64,000 nucleotides of DNA from Sulfobacillus thermosulfidooxidans (GTDB lineage Bacteria; Bacillota; Sulfobacillia; Sulfobacillales; Sulfobacillaceae): assembly GCF_001280565.1 (NCBI RefSeq), contig NZ_LGRO01000001.1:248001-312000 (forward strand), given 5' to 3'. The translations under genes and the position numbers were made by a program. This document shows, in pieces, positions 54,058-61,584 of the stretch (position 1 is the first letter of the stretch; every line of letters begins with the position of its first letter). Below the pieces are notes generated by a model that searched no databases, had not been told where the DNA came from, and saw only the letters and a list, made by a program, of their open reading frames with translations.

Positions 54058-55005
54058 TTAGATTTGCTCTATGTCATGCTCTACGTCAATCCGACGAATC
54101 GTATCGTTCATCTGAATCCAGTGCTCCCTACATTGCATCAGAATCTGAAGCGCGGGAGTTGGTTTACCCAAAGCTGCCATGCTAATTCCCACGTTTTGCA
54201 GAGCTAGCCAGTACATGGGTGAATTCATAGTCTGATAAAGCGTACTCGCCCTTTGGGCATACTGCTGCGCCTGCTCCCATTCATTTAAGTAACCATAAAC
54301 TGCAGATAATCCATGTGTCACCCATGCCTCCGCGACCAAACGCTGTGATGTGCCGTTAAGTCGATTTAAGACATCAGTGTATTGGTATTCTGACTGCTTG
54401 ACATCGCCTTGCCTCAAAAGCGCAGATCCTGTGGCAATTCCTATACGAAGGCGTAAATCTAAGGGTACCGACATTTCCAAAAGAGCCTTGCCCCAACGAA
54501 TAGTGTCGCCCCATTTTTGTTGTCTGAACAATGTCCGTTGAATGTGATAACCCAATTGAATGGCCCGTTCCTGATCTCCTTCGTTGAGAAACCACATGAC
54601 CATAGCATTCGGCCAAGACAGGTCCTTCTGGGAGCAAACTTCGAGAATGCGTTGTACACGACGGTAGATTTCGTGAATGGTCCGTTTGTCATGGACGTGG
54701 ATGGCATCCCACCATAAGTGTTCCAAATATTCATAGGCTACCATAATTTGACCTTTGTTCATCAAGTCATCAAGATAGAGCAGCTGTGAGCGAGTTTGGG
54801 TAGAGAAGTCTTGGGTTCCTAATAGCTCCCCGATTGGTATTTGAACACGTTGGCTCAATTGGACCAACAGATCTGTCGGTGGTGAGACCTTATCTTGTTC
54901 CAGGAGACTAATGTACGAACGGTCACAAAGACCTTGTGCAACTTGCTCCTGGGTTAATCGCGCAGCCTTACGCGCCATTCGAAATCGCGATCCGATGGTG
55001 CTGAT
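54058..55005 (-). CDS. RRNPP/Rgg-like quorum-sensing regulator
   Basis: An N-terminal XRE helix-turn-helix (ARKAARLTQEQVAQGL, CDRSYISLLEQDKV) is followed by about 240 residues of TPR-like helices ending near RRIDVEHDIEQI. This architecture binds exported-and-reimported peptides in the Rgg/PlcR/NprR families. The ATG at 54978 would leave out the natural first helix. The same frame runs upstream as ISTIGSRFRM, and an ATC at 55005 has GGAGG 7 bases upstream, so a rare start is proposed. It is transcribed divergently from the peptide gene. Confidence 0.75.
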   Translation of the reverse strand: MSTIGSRFRMARKAARLTQEQVAQGLCDRSYISLLEQDKVSPPTDLLVQLSQRVQIPIGELLGTQDFSTQTRSQLLYLDDLMNKGQIMVAYEYLEHLWWDAIHVHDKRTIHEIYRRVQRILEVCSQKDLSWPNAMVMWFLNEGDQERAIQLGYHIQRTLFRQQKWGDTIRWGKALLEMSVPLDLRLRIGIATGSALLRQGDVKQSEYQYTDVLNRLNGTSQRLVAEAWVTHGLSAVYGYLNEWEQAQQYAQRASTLYQTMNSPMYWLALQNVGISMAALGKPTPALQILMQCREHWIQMNDTIRRIDVEHDIEQI

Positions 55006-55027
55006 GTGAATCCCTCCATTAGCTTGC

Positions 55028-55079
55028 TGTGAATCTTCACACCGTGAACTCTAGATGGCTGTTAGATTGATATTAACAG
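55028..55079. promoter_or_regulatory. Two palindromes in the divergent regulator/peptide promoter region
   Basis: TGTGAA-TC-TTCACA lies at 55028-55041. CTGTTA at 55059-55064 and TAACAG at 55074-55079 are separated by 9 bases. Both are candidate operators for the regulator. Confidence 0.5.
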
Positions 55080-55115
55080 AAAATTACGGCCATAGCATTT
55101 ATGGAGGGAACAGAT

Positions 55116-55280
55116 ATGAGACACACTCTGCGGTCTGCATTAGTCGCATTGATCTTGTTAACTGTTATCTTATCTACTGCTTCAGTCGCACTCGATGCAT
55201 CCCAATCTTTTATGCACGTTACTCAATTGGCGGCTGGGTCAGTTTTGCCTAATGGCCTAACCGACCCGGGTGCTCCTTAA
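55116..55280 (+). CDS. Exported signalling peptide precursor (candidate)
   Basis: This 54-residue product starts at ATG 55116, with GGAGGG 8 bases upstream. A basic start (MRHTLRS) leads to a hydrophobic segment ALVALILLTVILSTASVALD, then a short C-terminus ending GSVLPNGLTDPGAP. The size, charge and position, divergent from an Rgg-like gene, fit an exported pheromone precursor. The mature peptide is unknown. Confidence 0.65.
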   Translation: MRHTLRSALVALILLTVILSTASVALDASQSFMHVTQLAAGSVLPNGLTDPGAP

Positions 55281-55335
55281 CGCATGTACAATGTATTCAC
55301 GTACCGTTCTGGATAAGGGAGGTTATTTTTTTGAG

Positions 55336-56679
55336 ATGGAACGTACCAAGTGCACTGATACCGATCACTTAGTGAACTGGTCCCGCTATAACGTCATTGT
55401 GCCGTCAGGTGAGATGCGTTGGCTACTTTATAATACCGCTACTGCCCGTTTGCTCGCATTCAAAGCTGATCCCCAACCGATTCAAGCGTATTATGAAGAG
55501 GGTAACGAATTGTTTGCTGGACATGAGAAGCTCTACAATCTAGGATTTCTGGTCGACCAGTCCATCAATGAACTATCAGTTGTACGCAACGAATTCGACC
55601 GTCTGAAGGACCCGCGTTCGCAATCCCTACTGATTTTACCAACGGAGCAATGCAACTTCCGGTGTGTCTATTGTTATGAAGAGTTTATCAAGCCAAAAAT
55701 GGCTCCAGACATACGGCAAGGGCTCATTACGTGGGTCCGGAATCATGCCCCACAGTGGAACGATTTTAGCGTAGCATGGTTTGGAGGCGAACCTCTAGTT
55801 GCGTATGATGTTGTGCACGAGCTTTCTGAGGCCTTTATAGACATCTGTTCTTCCACCAGGTGTCATTACAGGGCTTCGATGACCACCAACGGCTATTTGC
55901 TAAAATTTGATCGGGTTCAGCAGTTGCATGAGCTTGGAGTCCATCGCTACCAAATCACCTTGGATGGCGTTGAGGACAAACACGACATCAAACGTCATCT
56001 TATTAGCGGTAAGGGAACGTATGACACTATCATGCAGAATCTTATGGACATTCATCATTCGGAGTTGGACGTGTCAATTACCATTCGCATGAACATTGAT
56101 CAGAATAATGGACCACATCTTTACCGCCTAATCGAAGTTCTAGCGGAGAAGCTGGAAGGTGATTCGCGGTTTCAATTTAGTATACACCTTATTGGCAAGT
56201 GGGGAGGTAGGAACGATAACAATCTTTCGGTGTATGAACAAAATGACGGCGTTTGTACATTGACAAAAGTGACCCAGTATGGAATAGAAAAGGGACTCAA
56301 CACCGGATTCTTCGAGCAAATGCTTCCTCACACCCCCTGCTATGCTGCGATGCCCAATTCGCTCGTTATTGGATCGGATGGCATCGTTTATAAGTGCACG
56401 GTTGCCTTCGACAATCCGATTAACCACGTCGGGAAGTTGTACCCTGATGGGCGTTTGGACATTAACGAGCAATATTTCGCGCAATGGGTGGTTGACGGCG
56501 CTACCGACTCTTCCTGCCAGTCTTGCCAAGTTCATCCAATGTGTCATGGAGCTAGCTGCCCTGTCATTCGAATTGAAGAAAACACCCGTCCCTGTCCCAC
56601 TGTGCGAAAAGATTTGCCCGCCTTTATTAGACTACTTGACATTAATATGCAGATGACGCAAATGAAGAACCGGGCATAA
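55336..56679 (+). CDS. Radical SAM/SPASM peptide-modifying enzyme
   Basis: This 447-residue protein has the CX3CX2C cluster TEQCNFRCVYCYEE (Cys106, 110, 113), the GGEP motif in WFGGEPLV, and a SAM-binding strand region (SMTTNGYLL, YQITLDGVED). The C-terminal SPASM domain has Cys in HTPCYAAM, YKCTVAF, SCQSCQVHPMCHGASC and RPCP. An N-terminal domain of about 90 residues may be a peptide-binding RRE-like fold. The nearest ribosome site (GGGAGG) is 13 bases before ATG 55336. It probably installs a C-C or thioether link on the small peptide downstream. Confidence 0.85.
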   Translation: MERTKCTDTDHLVNWSRYNVIVPSGEMRWLLYNTATARLLAFKADPQPIQAYYEEGNELFAGHEKLYNLGFLVDQSINELSVVRNEFDRLKDPRSQSLLILPTEQCNFRCVYCYEEFIKPKMAPDIRQGLITWVRNHAPQWNDFSVAWFGGEPLVAYDVVHELSEAFIDICSSTRCHYRASMTTNGYLLKFDRVQQLHELGVHRYQITLDGVEDKHDIKRHLISGKGTYDTIMQNLMDIHHSELDVSITIRMNIDQNNGPHLYRLIEVLAEKLEGDSRFQFSIHLIGKWGGRNDNNLSVYEQNDGVCTLTKVTQYGIEKGLNTGFFEQMLPHTPCYAAMPNSLVIGSDGIVYKCTVAFDNPINHVGKLYPDGRLDINEQYFAQWVVDGATDSSCQSCQVHPMCHGASCPVIRIEENTRPCPTVRKDLPAFIRLLDINMQMTQMKNRA

Positions 56680-56757
56680 AGTTTAGGGGACAATCTGTCC
56701 GGTGTGTGTCCCCTATTTACAGTGTCACACCGGATGGCTCTGAAAGGGGGTGAGTTT

Positions 56758-56859
56758 ATGAAGACCTTAACGATTGACTTTGAAGAAGTCATCGTCTCCG
56801 TGGACTTGGAGAAGAAGATTCGCGAGTTTGCGGTTTCGGGTAATAACTGCCCTTGTTAA
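56758..56859 (+). CDS. RiPP precursor peptide (candidate), 33 residues
   Basis: ATG 56758 has AAAGGGGGTG upstream. The N-terminal leader is MKTLTIDFEEVIVSVDLEKK, rich in acidic and branched residues. The C-terminus is short and ends SGNNCPC, two Cys separated by Pro. It directly follows the radical SAM/SPASM gene and precedes a hairpin and the transporter, the usual order for such clusters. No such peptide family is known to me. Confidence 0.65.
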   Translation: MKTLTIDFEEVIVSVDLEKKIREFAVSGNNCPC

Positions 56860-56873
56860 TAACCCTGCAGTAG

Positions 56874-56905
56874 CAACAGAGGGGTCTTCGAGACCCTCTC
56901 TGTTG
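56874..56905 (+). terminator. Attenuator-type hairpin between precursor and transporter
   Basis: CAACAGAG and GGGTCT pair with AGACCC and CTCTGTTG (one bulged base). There is no U tract after it (TCATAAAT). It could stabilise the short precursor mRNA or cause partial termination, lowering transporter expression. Confidence 0.5.
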
Positions 56906-56934
56906 TCATAAATAGCCGAAAGAAGGGATGCTGT

Positions 56935-58176
56935 ATTTTAGGCCCGCAGCGGTCATCAGCCAATACTAAATATCTTTTATTATTTTGGCTAGGTCGTACC
57001 TTCTTAGGTCTAAGTTTTAATACATTCGGCTTTATGGTTTATTGGTTGGTTGAACAACAGACGCACAAGGTTCAGGCGTTATTAGTTCTCGGGTTTCTTT
57101 CCATGGGAGCCCATTGGTTTAGCGGATTAGGTGGTGTATGGGCCGACCAATATGAAACGACGTCGTTGCTTAAAGGATTTGCGGGGATCACCGCCTTGAT
57201 GTTAGGGATTACGTCCGTCTGGACGCGTCAAACGCATCAGATATCTGTTATGATATTAATGATCATCTACGGCTTAATCGTGAGTCTACAAAATGCTTCG
57301 GCCTCACTTTTTCGTACAGCGCCTCTGCAATGGGTGCCAAAATCCCAATGGCCATCTCTTAATGCACTGAATGGTATTGTTGGGCGTCTTGCTGTGATGG
57401 CCAGCGGCCTACTCGACCTTCTTATTTTTCATTTTTCGATGTCCATGGTTTGGCGATTCGCTTTTCCCGCGGGCGCAGCCGTATTCGCGGGATTGTTATG
57501 GATGCCGTTGGGGCGAGCCACCATTGTGACAGAGATGAAACGACAAGTTAATGACCACCATTTTGAATCTAAGTTGAATCGGCACACCTTAGCCGAAATC
57601 TGGCAGCTTTCAGCGTTTCGTAATCTGACTTTACTACTGGCACTTGCAAATGTTTTTGCCATGCCCTTTTTGCATCTGTTACCTGCATGGTCAGGGCAAA
57701 TCTTACATACTGGCAACCAAGGGTATTTTTCTTTTAAGGTTAGCGATGCTGTAGGTCTCTTGGCCGGCTATGGTATCTCGTACTGGCTATCTAAGAAGGC
57801 GGTCACGCCGATGAAGGGCGTTCGTATCGGGCTCTTATTGCAGCTTGTTATTTTCTCATTTCCATGGTTACGAGGCTTGTGGCTGCCGCTGGCTGCAGTG
57901 ACATTAATGGGGATCAGTGACGGCATACAGGACACATACATTATTTCGTTGTTACAACGGTACGTTCCTGATGACATGCAGGGACGGATGTTTGGAATTT
58001 TAACCTTAATTGTTGGAGGCATTGCCGGGCCTGTGGGATTGGCGATTGTTATGGGACTTAGCTTAGAGCTATCCCTAGAAGCCATCTTTATCGTATCTTC
58101 GATTGGAATTGGATTGGTGACGTTGGTTCTGCTTCGGTACTCTTTAGTCCCACTCCATAAGCCAGGCGTGAAATAA
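56935..58176 (+). CDS. MFS transporter
   Basis: This protein of about 413 residues has about 12 transmembrane segments, so it is a major facilitator. It contains GGVWADQYETTSLLKGF (a motif A-like loop) and a later motif near YVPDDMQGRMFG. A shorter frame from ATG 57034 would remove the first helix. In the full frame LLLFWLGRTFLGLSFNTFGF forms that helix, and an ATT at 56935 follows GAAGGGATG. It probably exports the modified peptide or its fragment. Confidence 0.8.
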   Translation: MLGPQRSSANTKYLLLFWLGRTFLGLSFNTFGFMVYWLVEQQTHKVQALLVLGFLSMGAHWFSGLGGVWADQYETTSLLKGFAGITALMLGITSVWTRQTHQISVMILMIIYGLIVSLQNASASLFRTAPLQWVPKSQWPSLNALNGIVGRLAVMASGLLDLLIFHFSMSMVWRFAFPAGAAVFAGLLWMPLGRATIVTEMKRQVNDHHFESKLNRHTLAEIWQLSAFRNLTLLLALANVFAMPFLHLLPAWSGQILHTGNQGYFSFKVSDAVGLLAGYGISYWLSKKAVTPMKGVRIGLLLQLVIFSFPWLRGLWLPLAAVTLMGISDGIQDTYIISLLQRYVPDDMQGRMFGILTLIVGGIAGPVGLAIVMGLSLELSLEAIFIVSSIGIGLVTLVLLRYSLVPLHKPGVK

Positions 58177-58598: not shown

Positions 58599-58883
58599 TT
58601 AACGATGCGCCAGCACAAAACGCCAGATAATGCGGTTGTTGCCGGTAAGGTTGTGGATAGTCATGTGTTGACGTAATACATCACGGTTCTGGGTATCCCA
58701 CAATTTCCCAAAACATTCATCCATAAACGCACTGGTCATGACCTCGACGCTGGAAAAGTCGCAATGAATCGTCTGCCCGACTTGGAGCAAATGTTCGAGA
58801 TGTTGTCGCAAAGGCCGGGCTTGAGCGCGCTGGCCCAAGGTGTCGGTGCCGCAGAATGCGGCGAGATTAAGATGGATTGTCAT
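58599..58883 (-). CDS. STAS-like (DUF4325) protein
   Basis: This 94-residue protein has the pattern VGQTIHCDFSSVEVMTSAFMDECFGKLWD of the STAS-like DUF4325 family, with its Asp-Phe-Ser-Ser-Val core and the Ser-Ala-Phe helix. It may be an anti-anti-sigma-like switch. It stands alone, with about 50 bases to the HicB gene. Confidence 0.6.
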   Translation of the reverse strand: MTIHLNLAAFCGTDTLGQRAQARPLRQHLEHLLQVGQTIHCDFSSVEVMTSAFMDECFGKLWDTQNRDVLRQHMTIHNLTGNNRIIWRFVLAHR

Positions 58884-58934: not shown

Positions 58935-59378
58935 TTATTCATGATGATTGGATTTGTGCAGGGAACGACTGTGCGAGGACGATGGTCCTTGGCTTTGCCG
59001 AGGTACACCATTGTGGTGAAGACTTTGCGTCAATCGGTAGACGATGAGATGATTAAGACTTACGCCTTCTTTTTGAGCTTCTTGGGCTAGTGCCTGATGC
59101 AGGGATTTAGGCATGCGAACATTGAGCTTTCCTGAATAGACTGAAGACGATACGGAGTGCGTGCTGGGCATAGGAATGTCTATTGACTGTTCCAGCGCAA
59201 TAAGAATCCATGCGGTTTTTGCATCGGTGATCCGTTGGAGCGTTTCTTCCGGGGTTTCTCCCTGCGTGATACAACCGGGCAAATCGGGAATGGTGGCGAC
59301 ATATCCGCCTTCTTCAGCCGGATAGATCTCGATTCGGTAGGGACGCTGTATCAATTGTTCGAAATCCTGACTATTCAT
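58935..59378 (-). CDS. hicB: HicB antitoxin
   Basis: This 147-residue protein has an N-terminal partially degraded RNase-like domain (EGGYVATIPDLPGCITQGET) and a C-terminal ribbon-helix-helix (KLNVRMPKSLHQALAQEAQK). A longer Ser-rich tail follows. It neutralises HicA and overlaps hicA by 4 bases. Confidence 0.9.
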   Translation of the reverse strand: MNSQDFEQLIQRPYRIEIYPAEEGGYVATIPDLPGCITQGETPEETLQRITDAKTAWILIALEQSIDIPMPSTHSVSSSVYSGKLNVRMPKSLHQALAQEAQKEGVSLNHLIVYRLTQSLHHNGVPRQSQGPSSSHSRSLHKSNHHE

Positions 59379-59623
59379 GGCTCCTCGTCTTCCTCTTCAT
59401 GAAGGATTTTCAGGGCTTCTTTAACATAGCGTTCCTTAACATAAGGACTGTGCTTCGGAACGGTTAATAGGCGATGGCCTTTGATGTAAACATCATGGCG
59501 CGATCCCCTGCGGGGTTGTCGACGGACATAACCCGCACGTTGCAATAATTTATCTAAGTCGTTAAAGGTTACCGTTTTGGGGTTGTTGTGTATTTTGGCT
59601 AAAAGCTTTTCCCATTGGCTCAT
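59375..59623 (-). CDS. hicA: HicA toxin
   Basis: This 82-residue protein has a dsRNA-binding-like fold (VTFNDLDKLLQRAGYVRRQP, then GSRHDVYIKGHRLLTVPKHS) with the catalytic His in GSRHD. It starts at ATG 59623 with AGGAG upstream. It is an mRNA interferase, paired with hicB. Confidence 0.9.
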   Translation of the reverse strand: MSQWEKLLAKIHNNPKTVTFNDLDKLLQRAGYVRRQPRRGSRHDVYIKGHRLLTVPKHSPYVKERYVKEALKILHEEEDEEP

Positions 59624-59705
59624 GGCACAACTCCTAAAAAGAATAGTACCATATGTAGTGGCAATTAACAATGTATTAAAGAGGTCCATCCCTATTTCAG
59701 AATAA

Positions 59706-60119: not shown

Positions 60120-61584
60120 CTAACCCTCGCGGGTTAAGGCGGGGGTTTCCGGGATCGCTCCCGGAAGTTTCTGGCTCATGGATCGCTGCGCCGGGGCCGT
60201 TGGCCCCAGACGTCTTACGCTGATCTCCCCAGGCGTGACTTCGGACCGTTCCGGCCCTAGTGGACGAAAAAACCGCGTCCGCTTGCGCGGCCGCGTGAGC
60301 GGTTCTCCCGCCAAGAGTTTTTGGATGCCCCGCTTTGCGATGACCACCGCCGCGTTGTGATCGGCGTTGTCGGCATGTCCGCAGCGTTGACAGACGAACT
60401 CGGCCTGACTCGGCCGATTGTCCGGAGAAGTGAATGTGCACACCGCACATTCCTGCGAACTGTGTTGGGGCGCGACCGTGATGACTAACTTTCCCTGACG
60501 GAGGGCTTTGTAACGAGTAAATGCCACCACATTTCCCCAAGCAGAAGAAAGAATGGCCCGATTCAGCTCGGCCTTGGCGCGACGACCGTTGCGAACCCAG
60601 TGGCCCTGGGCATCACGCTTCGCTTTTGGACGTTTGGTCATGTGGGAAATTTTAAGATCCTCGAAGACATAGAGATTATAGGCCGCATTCGCGACCAGAC
60701 GGTGACTGGTCTGATGGGCATAATCCTGACGGACGTTCTTTTCGTACTGCTGATAGCGCGCCACTTTACGATAGGCTTTTTTCTGATTCTTTGACCCCTT
60801 TTTTCGTCGAGCGGCTTGGCGTTGCCACCGTTTGGCGGCTTTGCGATGCTTTTGGATGCGCGTTTTTTGCACGGGCTGCAGATCGTGCACCTGCCCGTTC
60901 GAAGTCGTTAAGGGTTTCGCGATGCCGCGGTCTCCGCCGAGCGTGCGCTCAGTCAGTTGTTCTCGCGAAAGATGCCGGAGATCTTCGGCGATCCGCTCGG
61001 TGGTCGCATCGGCATCGGACTCCGGCAGGGTGATGTTGAAATCCTCAGCCGCAAAGGACAGCCACCAATGCCCCCCCCTCGACGGCAATATGAATTGAAG
61101 AGGGCACCGCATGGGACCGATGCGCAACATACGGGATCCTGCCCACGGGAAAGTTATCTGTCCCTACGTACAACGCATACCCCGATACGGCATCTGGCGT
61201 AACCTCTTCGATCGGGATGAACGCAAAGAGTTCGGACGTGAGCCACACACTTTGCCGTCCCGATTTCTTTTTGAGCTTCGGACGCCCGCCGAGCTTCTGA
61301 AAAAACCGCTGATAGGCTTGGCGGAAGCGAACGGCCCCGTTGCGGAGCACCTGCGACGGCACCTCGCGAAGAAAGGGGGTACGCTCGGTCACAAATTGGT
61401 GATATCGCTGATCGACCGGGATGGGCATCCCCGCTGTGCCCACCATGTGCCTGGCAAAGCGACGAAAGTACCGATCTTCCTGGACCTTGGCGTTGTAGAT
61501 GAGGCGCTGACACCCGATCCACCGAAGCAAAATCTGTTCCTGTTCCGGCGTTGGATATAAACGAAAGCGATACCCGTTCAGCAT
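60120..61584 (-). pseudogene. tnpB: TnpB nuclease, frameshifted in a G run
   Basis: The N-terminal frame (61045-61584, MLNGYRFRLYPTPEQEQILL) and the C-terminal frame (from about 61075) join in a run of eight G on the coding strand (61071-61078). Seven would fuse them. RuvC residues are GGDRGIAKPL (Asp), YVFEDLKIS (Glu) and ADNADHNAAVV (Asp); a zinc finger CAVC...CQRCG is present. After it comes an unusual tail of about 70 residues. The end overlaps the presumed guide RNA scaffold. Confidence 0.75.

Follow-up and report, generated by a model that had tools for sequence, protein, structure and literature searches.

The window analysed in this work is a stretch of 64,000 nucleotides from the 3.8 Mb genome of Sulfobacillus thermosulfidooxidans, and within its positions 54058-58176 lie five genes that an initial annotation had put together as a quorum-sensing-controlled radical S-adenosylmethionine (SAM) system for a ribosomally synthesized and post-translationally modified peptide (RiPP). 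All five genes are present in the claimed order, namely a helix-turn-helix (HTH) regulator with tetratricopeptide repeats (TPR), a divergent 54-residue peptide, a radical SAM/SPASM enzyme, a 33-residue peptide and a major facilitator superfamily (MFS) transporter. Their coordinates are collected in Table 1, and a similar layout is seen at three loci of the same bacterial family, L032 (same genus), L031 and L033, whose enzymes are about 45%, 48% and 35% identical to that of the window.

Table 1. Features of the locus in window coordinates (ORF, open reading frame; RRE, RiPP recognition element; SD, Shine-Dalgarno sequence)
Feature	Position	Strand	Basis
RRNPP-type HTH-TPR regulator (putative pheromone receptor)	ORF 54058-54978 from ATG; 54058-55005 from apparent homology start ATC	-	HTH_3, TPR_12, AlphaFold2 model, alignment with L032 and L033
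54-residue putative secreted pheromone propeptide, divergent from regulator	55116-55280	+	SD GGAGGG; last 8 residues equal those of L033 counterpart
Predicted mature signal region GLTDPGAP (N-terminal cleavage approximate)	55254-55277	+	Conserved G-[LIV]-T-[DN]-P-G-x-P ends
Radical SAM/SPASM RiPP maturase, 447 residues, N-terminal RRE-like region	55336-56679	+	PF04055 (E 5e-17), NCBIfam, AlphaFold2 fold
33-residue precursor peptide, predicted core end S-G-N29-N30-C31-P32-C33	56758-56859	+	SD, position, N-x2,3-C-stop end shared with relatives, hairpin 3'
RNA hairpin directly 3' of precursor gene, ahead of exporter gene	56873-56906	+	-23.5 kcal/mol, z -4.2
MFS transporter that probably exports the product, likely ATT start	56935-58176	+	PF07690 (E 7e-14); MFS genes near most related clusters

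The radical SAM/SPASM enzyme, whose best start is the ATG at 55336, has the complete CX3CX2C site ascribed to it, in the form CNFRCVYC, together with seven cysteines in the SPASM region, and all of these are invariant in four relatives and also in a set of 30. Its best match in NCBIfam is TIGR04463, the rSAM_vs_C_rich maturases, which aligns with most of its length at 213 bits (E 5.5e-63), but the cut-off of this equivalog is 525 bits and the window precursor is not Cys-rich; in fact the enzyme scores far under the cut-off of every named maturase family. An AlphaFold2 model built on 30 sequences (mean predicted local distance difference test, pLDDT, 91.9) is closest among solved structures to CteB (5why; Z 27.0, root-mean-square deviation 4.3 over 383 residues, 17% identity), the alignment spanning residues 16-436, with anSME tied to it (Z 26.5) and ChlB, TigE, SuiB and SkfB following. 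Among these nearest structures the N-terminal region is covered by CteB and TigE only, and the strands and helices that the model places at residues 12-74, which align with CteB from residue 16, look RRE-like as far as the structure model goes. On the enzyme tree the window, L031, L032 and Halobacillus L055 form one clade with support 100/99, and the labels for peptide type and for the cysteine decarboxylase described below are clustered (0 of 200 shuffles as low). Besides, a large sister clade, mostly of Bacillales, has a conserved Cys-free peptide of 26-30 residues, about MRILRPATSPVAASNSGRLSKSVPGNLK-stop, directly after the enzyme gene (L057, L058, L060, L063, L082, L087, L093, L102, L103, L106, L119 and L126), and no name was found for this precursor family. 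More distant relatives of the same phylum have Cys-rich precursors (L167 in G453, L168 in G494 and L169 in G204), which occur in several copies in G204 (MQMLVEGTELEHDTECFINC...).

The 33-residue precursor, MKTLTIDFEEVIVSVDLEKKIREFAVSGNNCPC, has GGGGGTG upstream and ends with Asn-x-x-Cys as N30-C31-P32-C33. Relatives were found by a scan of 84,980 species followed by scripts, with G452 coming from a phylum search; the single-sequence scan of genome contigs gave no relatives, whereas the alignment-based scan did. In about 15 clusters a counterpart of the precursor stands beside related radical SAM/SPASM genes, in Halobacillus, Geobacillus, Paenibacillus, Tumebacillus and family relatives, and most of these peptides have an Asn-x(2,3)-Cys-stop end, a hairpin 3' and an MFS gene nearby. 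Both small peptides of the locus are conserved beside homologous enzymes and regulators, whereas a lack of such conservation was what the initial annotation had named as refuting its proposal, and the combined logic of quorum sensing and a radical SAM RiPP holds.

The ends themselves vary considerably around a common denominator, which is Asn three or four residues ahead of a Cys that is usually the last residue. For example in the same family the ends are NSNCLCR (L032), DDNCVC (L031) and KNAVCGGGC (L033), while elsewhere they are TNNCNC in Halobacillus hunanensis, TNTNCGGC in Geobacillus jurassicus, NDNCNGC and variants in several Paenibacillus, NNCNC in up to three copies in Tumebacillus avium, T. 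lacus and T. permanentifrigoris, KNVFCGAGC in Saliterribacillus, DNCNC/DNCDC plus a follower in three copies in Nonomuraea, NNNVIC in T. flagellatus, INIFC in Paenibacillus NAIST15-1, LNVVAC and INIIAC in the two copies of Longirhabdus, and DSNCHNC in G452. The precursors are 21-49 residues long across the family, and no NCBIfam model was found for the seven that were tried; in Paenibacillus the last eight residues of the copies are unchanging with silent codon changes along the gene. Read from these sequences, the conserved feature is Asn-x-x-Cys (N-x2,3-C) and not Cys-Pro-Cys. Both Cys-Pro-Cys as the motif and NCxC as the definition of the family are ruled out, since the middle residue varies and three clusters bearing the decarboxylase have a single-Cys precursor (L067, L068 and L110), in which Asn likewise stands three or four residues before the terminal Cys. 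The window end, which had been regarded as unplaceable, fits the motif of its family and that of the streptococcal NxxC ranthipeptide (PMC8326336, PMC13361665).

To control for chance, small ORFs of 18-75 residues with an SD score of at least 5.5 were compared at 17 radical SAM loci, and N-x2,3-C ends were found in 11 of the 36 ORFs on the same strand near the enzyme or decarboxylase genes versus 3 of 123 elsewhere (Fisher p 5e-6), a comparison between places within the same loci, some of which were included since a Cys-ended peptide had already been seen there. The three ORFs elsewhere are tandem precursor copies of L128. Stable folds lie 3' of the precursor gene in 14 of the 15 regions tested, where shuffled sequences fold less well than the 100 bases following the precursor (z -2.3 to -5.4), whose sequences are unrelated, the exception being the short spacer between the copies of L130. 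It is plausible that the hairpin is an attenuator or an RNA stabiliser raising the precursor over the exporter.

The conserved end bears on the chemistry as well. With the cluster the same, its enzyme might instead produce a sactionine-type alpha-thioether, an epimer or some other link in the NCPC end, which we judge rather unlikely while taking it seriously: the best NCBIfam matches mix sacti-, ranthi- and other maturases, the fold is shared by CteB, anSME, ChlB, TigE, SuiB and SkfB, and the large sister clade stands beside Cys-free peptides, so that the bond cannot be told from the fold. However, Asn is kept three or four residues before the terminal Cys across otherwise unlike peptides, even the single-Cys ones. 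A link between the terminal Cys and the beta-carbon of this Asn has a counterpart in Streptococcus, where the enzyme NxxcB bonds Cys23 of NxxcA to the beta-carbon of Asn20 (PMC8326336).

As for the signalling pair, systems of the RRNPP type are described by a Sec-secreted propeptide of 10-100 residues beside a receptor of 250-500 residues with TPRs that binds the mature peptide (PMC10075063), and here the propeptide of 54 residues is divergent from a regulator of 306-315 residues with TPR_12 (33.1 bits, cut-off 30.1) and HTH_3 (E 8e-7) above cut-off. The AlphaFold2 model of the regulator (pLDDT 91.6) has PlcR-PapR (2qfc) as its top Foldseek match in the PDB, at full length with E 9.5e-7, and NprR and Rap proteins are also matched, among many generic TPR proteins. 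By VIA-align the generic TPR proteins have the higher scores, and the filing as RRNPP therefore rests on the HTH and TPR domains plus the gene context. The regulator had been called RRNPP/Rgg-like; the former part of this claim stands, while Rgg as the closest receptor is rejected with PlcR ranked first by Foldseek.

The 54-residue peptide, MRHTLRSALVALILLTVILS...VLPNGLTDPGAP, starts at an ATG shortly 3' of its GGAGGG and has a basic start followed by a hydrophobic stretch, as read from the sequence. With the exported peptide of L033 it has only the last eight residues, GLTDPGAP, in common, and five of their eight codons are changed, all silently; the TDPGAP-stop pattern occurs only at these two loci among 34 family genomes. 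Moreover an exported peptide of 41-57 residues is encoded divergently beside nearly all homologues of the regulator elsewhere in the family, and its end is related in most cases (SGITNPGVPA, SVTDPGSPS, SGVTDPGYP.., SGTTDPGYP.., SDVTNPGVS, SDVTSPGVV, QGITDGGPA), whereas the [ILV]T[DN][PG]G end is absent from all 1245 remaining small ORFs of the sampled family loci. No exported peptide of this motif type was found beside the homologues at L149 and L032. In Bacillus suaedaesalsae (L097) a similar regulator with a peptide ending DEEDPGAAN is divergent from the radical SAM cluster. The 54-residue peptide hence looks like an RRNPP pheromone precursor, and the DPG motif reported for AimR and the signals of Paenibacillaceae subfamily 08 (PMC12700828) is a precedent for this type of signal. 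Within the intergenic region between regulator and pheromone genes no long palindrome stood out, and a sigma-70 scan was uninformative.

Whether this pair controls the enzyme operon has to be weighed, for the two might be unrelated neighbours, with the RRNPP pair acting on another target and the enzyme, peptide and MFS genes forming an independent operon, as some loci that lack a radical SAM gene do have a regulator homologue and a pheromone of the same type. This we hold to be very improbable. The divergent regulator stands beside the enzyme in the window, L032, L033, L031 (as remnant TPR ORFs) and the Bacillus locus L097, and the pairing persists though the enzymes are only 35-48% identical to that of the window. 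Receptors of the HTH-5TPR type, besides, are in most cases associated with biosynthetic clusters (PMC12700828). As a separate observation, paralogous receptor/propeptide pairs with ends of about G-[LIV]-T-[DN]-P-G-x-P and no radical SAM gene in the stretch read were seen in family genomes at L140, L141, L143, L144, L146, L148, L150, L152 and L154.

In three of the four clusters of the window clade (L031, L032 and L055) there is an EpiD/MrsD-like cysteine decarboxylase (HFCD), which is found in the clusters L066, L067, L068, L069, L110 and L166 too. This flavoprotein has an invariant His and PASANT/PNM-like motifs, and for a profile of eight cluster HFCDs both MrsD (E 3e-50) and EpiD (E 9e-46) are better matches than the pantothenate-pathway enzymes CoaC/HAL3. 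EpiD-type enzymes need a C-terminal Cys; the precursors in the HFCD clusters track this need, as they end exactly in Cys except in L032 (NCLCR), though the search itself asked for Cys-ended ORFs and so selected in part for this end, the position of Asn being unselected. In L097, the sister of L067 without HFCD, the precursor ends INIACFA. The Cys-ended peptides of the HFCD clusters predict an aminovinyl-cysteine (AviCys)-like C terminus made by radical chemistry, and the i to i+3 spacing of the ring proposed is the same as in epidermin. We advance, tentatively and as a somewhat doubtful extension, that in the wider family the radical SAM enzyme would bond the C-terminal Cys to an Asn three or four positions earlier, at its beta-carbon, and that the EpiD-like enzyme would oxidatively decarboxylate this Cys, giving an aminovinyl thioether on Asn with no dehydratase involved. 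The window cluster would then be an offshoot that lacks the decarboxylase and is governed by a pheromone of its own.

The window genome in fact has no EpiD/LanD-type decarboxylase such as an AviCys-forming cluster uses, the one match, of 25% identity in a 402-residue frame, being CoaBC-like by length. As the window genome has CoaBC alone, an Asn30-Cys33 thioether is predicted there, and we think that the window product would carry it as a beta-thioether. Loss of the HFCD in the window lineage is a parsimonious reading of the enzyme tree, although the fork between window and L032 is weakly supported (93/18).

The start codons of two genes are unusual. The frame of the regulator is open for nine codons upstream to an ATC (55003-55005, minus strand) that falls exactly at the ATG of the L033 homologue, and the start appears to be this ATC by comparison of the two genes. 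The MFS match begins upstream of the ATG at 57034 and no ATG, GTG or TTG precedes it, so the start is probably the ATT at 56935-56937 after AAGAAGGG. ATT and ATC starts exist in bacteria. Decay of the cluster in the window genome would explain the same facts by lost ATG starts of regulator and exporter, and also the missing HFCD that three clade members have; we find it improbable, since no reading frame is broken and conservation extends to the core motif, the SD and the pheromone end.

Taken with these observations, we think it fairly probable that the locus is a radical SAM RiPP cluster under quorum sensing that works as follows. The 54-residue propeptide would be secreted, trimmed to a C-terminal signal of about GLTDPGAP and re-imported, where it would be bound by the divergent HTH-TPR regulator, which, acting on presumed DNA targets, would drive the operon of enzyme, precursor and MFS genes. 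The enzyme would recognise the precursor leader through its N-terminal RRE-like region and join the beta-carbon of Asn30 with Cys33 (NxxC, i to i+3), closing a four-residue ring N-C-P-C, with Cys31 free or participating; the leader would be removed by a host protease and the product, presumably active and with a biological role of its own, exported by the MFS protein. In the clade relatives the EpiD-like enzyme would decarboxylate the C-terminal Cys, a step that the window lineage would have lost or never gained. What the analysis shows directly are the genes with their order, motifs, conservation and predicted folds, from which signal length, DNA targets, bond type, export and activity are inferred.

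Several points weigh against this reading. The enzyme scores under all NCBIfam maturase cut-offs and the bond type is thus unreadable from family membership; the SD spacing at its start is long; in L033 and L104 it is the first Cys rather than the last that stands at the N-x-x-C position; the motif of L085 carries follower residues; the precursor of L032, of the same genus, ends NCLCR and no motif-bearing pheromone occurs there; the apparent ATC and ATT starts possibly mean weak expression or decay; and no dedicated leader protease is in the window cluster, peptidase genes (TldD/PmbA-like, M16 or S9) being found in those of relatives. Close relatives are patchy too, in 4 of 34 family genomes, a distribution that fits horizontal transfer.

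Other genes accompany some of the clusters. A family-5 solute-binding-like protein without obvious permease lies beside three of them (L130:7386-8942, L128:7159-8628 and L031:4179-5504). A B12-binding radical SAM protein adjoins the enzyme-HFCD cluster of Halobacillus (L055:3170-5377), with a similar-looking protein at Tumebacillus flagellatus (L068:1-1226), and this suggests an extra step such as methylation. Downstream of the locus on the minus strand of the window (58599-58883, 58935-59689 and 60120-61584) are a STAS-like DUF4325 protein, a HicB antitoxin adjoining a HicA-like ORF, and a split ORF that resembles by eye a TnpB-type protein.

Among known systems the closest in logic are the streptococcal Rgg/SHP radical SAM RiPPs of the NxxC type (NxxcA/NxxcB), to which the locus is likened by its radical SAM/SPASM enzyme, tiny precursor, peptide quorum sensing and Asn-x-x-Cys spacing. 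The initial annotation drew this parallel, and it survives for the overall logic but not for the type of signal: the window has a secretory-type propeptide ending GLTDPGAP and no short hydrophobic peptide (SHP), a PlcR-like receptor, a motif at the very C terminus, and relatives with a cysteine decarboxylase. The MFS gene in place of an ABC peptidase transporter, pointed out there as a peculiarity, is the usual arrangement in the family. With CteB and the SCIFF/PapB ranthipeptide maturases the enzyme shares the fold with N-terminal region, radical SAM and SPASM parts, but in place of six Cys the window precursor has a single NxxC. The HFCDs of the relatives resemble EpiD/MrsD in profile and in their nearly always Cys-ended precursors, yet their partner is a radical SAM enzyme rather than a dehydratase. 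RRNPP(A) pairs, AimR and subfamily 08 likewise have a small secreted propeptide beside an HTH-TPR receptor and DPG in the signal, whereas the window receptor is of short, PlcR-like size.

Radical SAM RiPPs under quorum sensing are already known, and the newest element is the pairing of a radical SAM enzyme with an EpiD-like one in the relatives. No such pairing was found in the open literature searched, which leaves out most subscription journals and is weak evidence of novelty. Searches of the same literature for RRNPP systems in Sulfobacillus, radical SAM RiPPs in Sulfobacillus and TIGR04463 gave nothing relevant, and Sulfobacillus is unmentioned in the RRNPP papers searched. Altogether our analysis gives a set of as yet unassigned radical SAM maturases a family of precursors that can be checked, with substrates of 21-49 residues that are easy to express, and names a concrete candidate pheromone for switching on such a cluster. 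If the scheme proposed for the relatives is true, it would amount to a dehydratase-free route to aminovinyl-cysteine-like rings.

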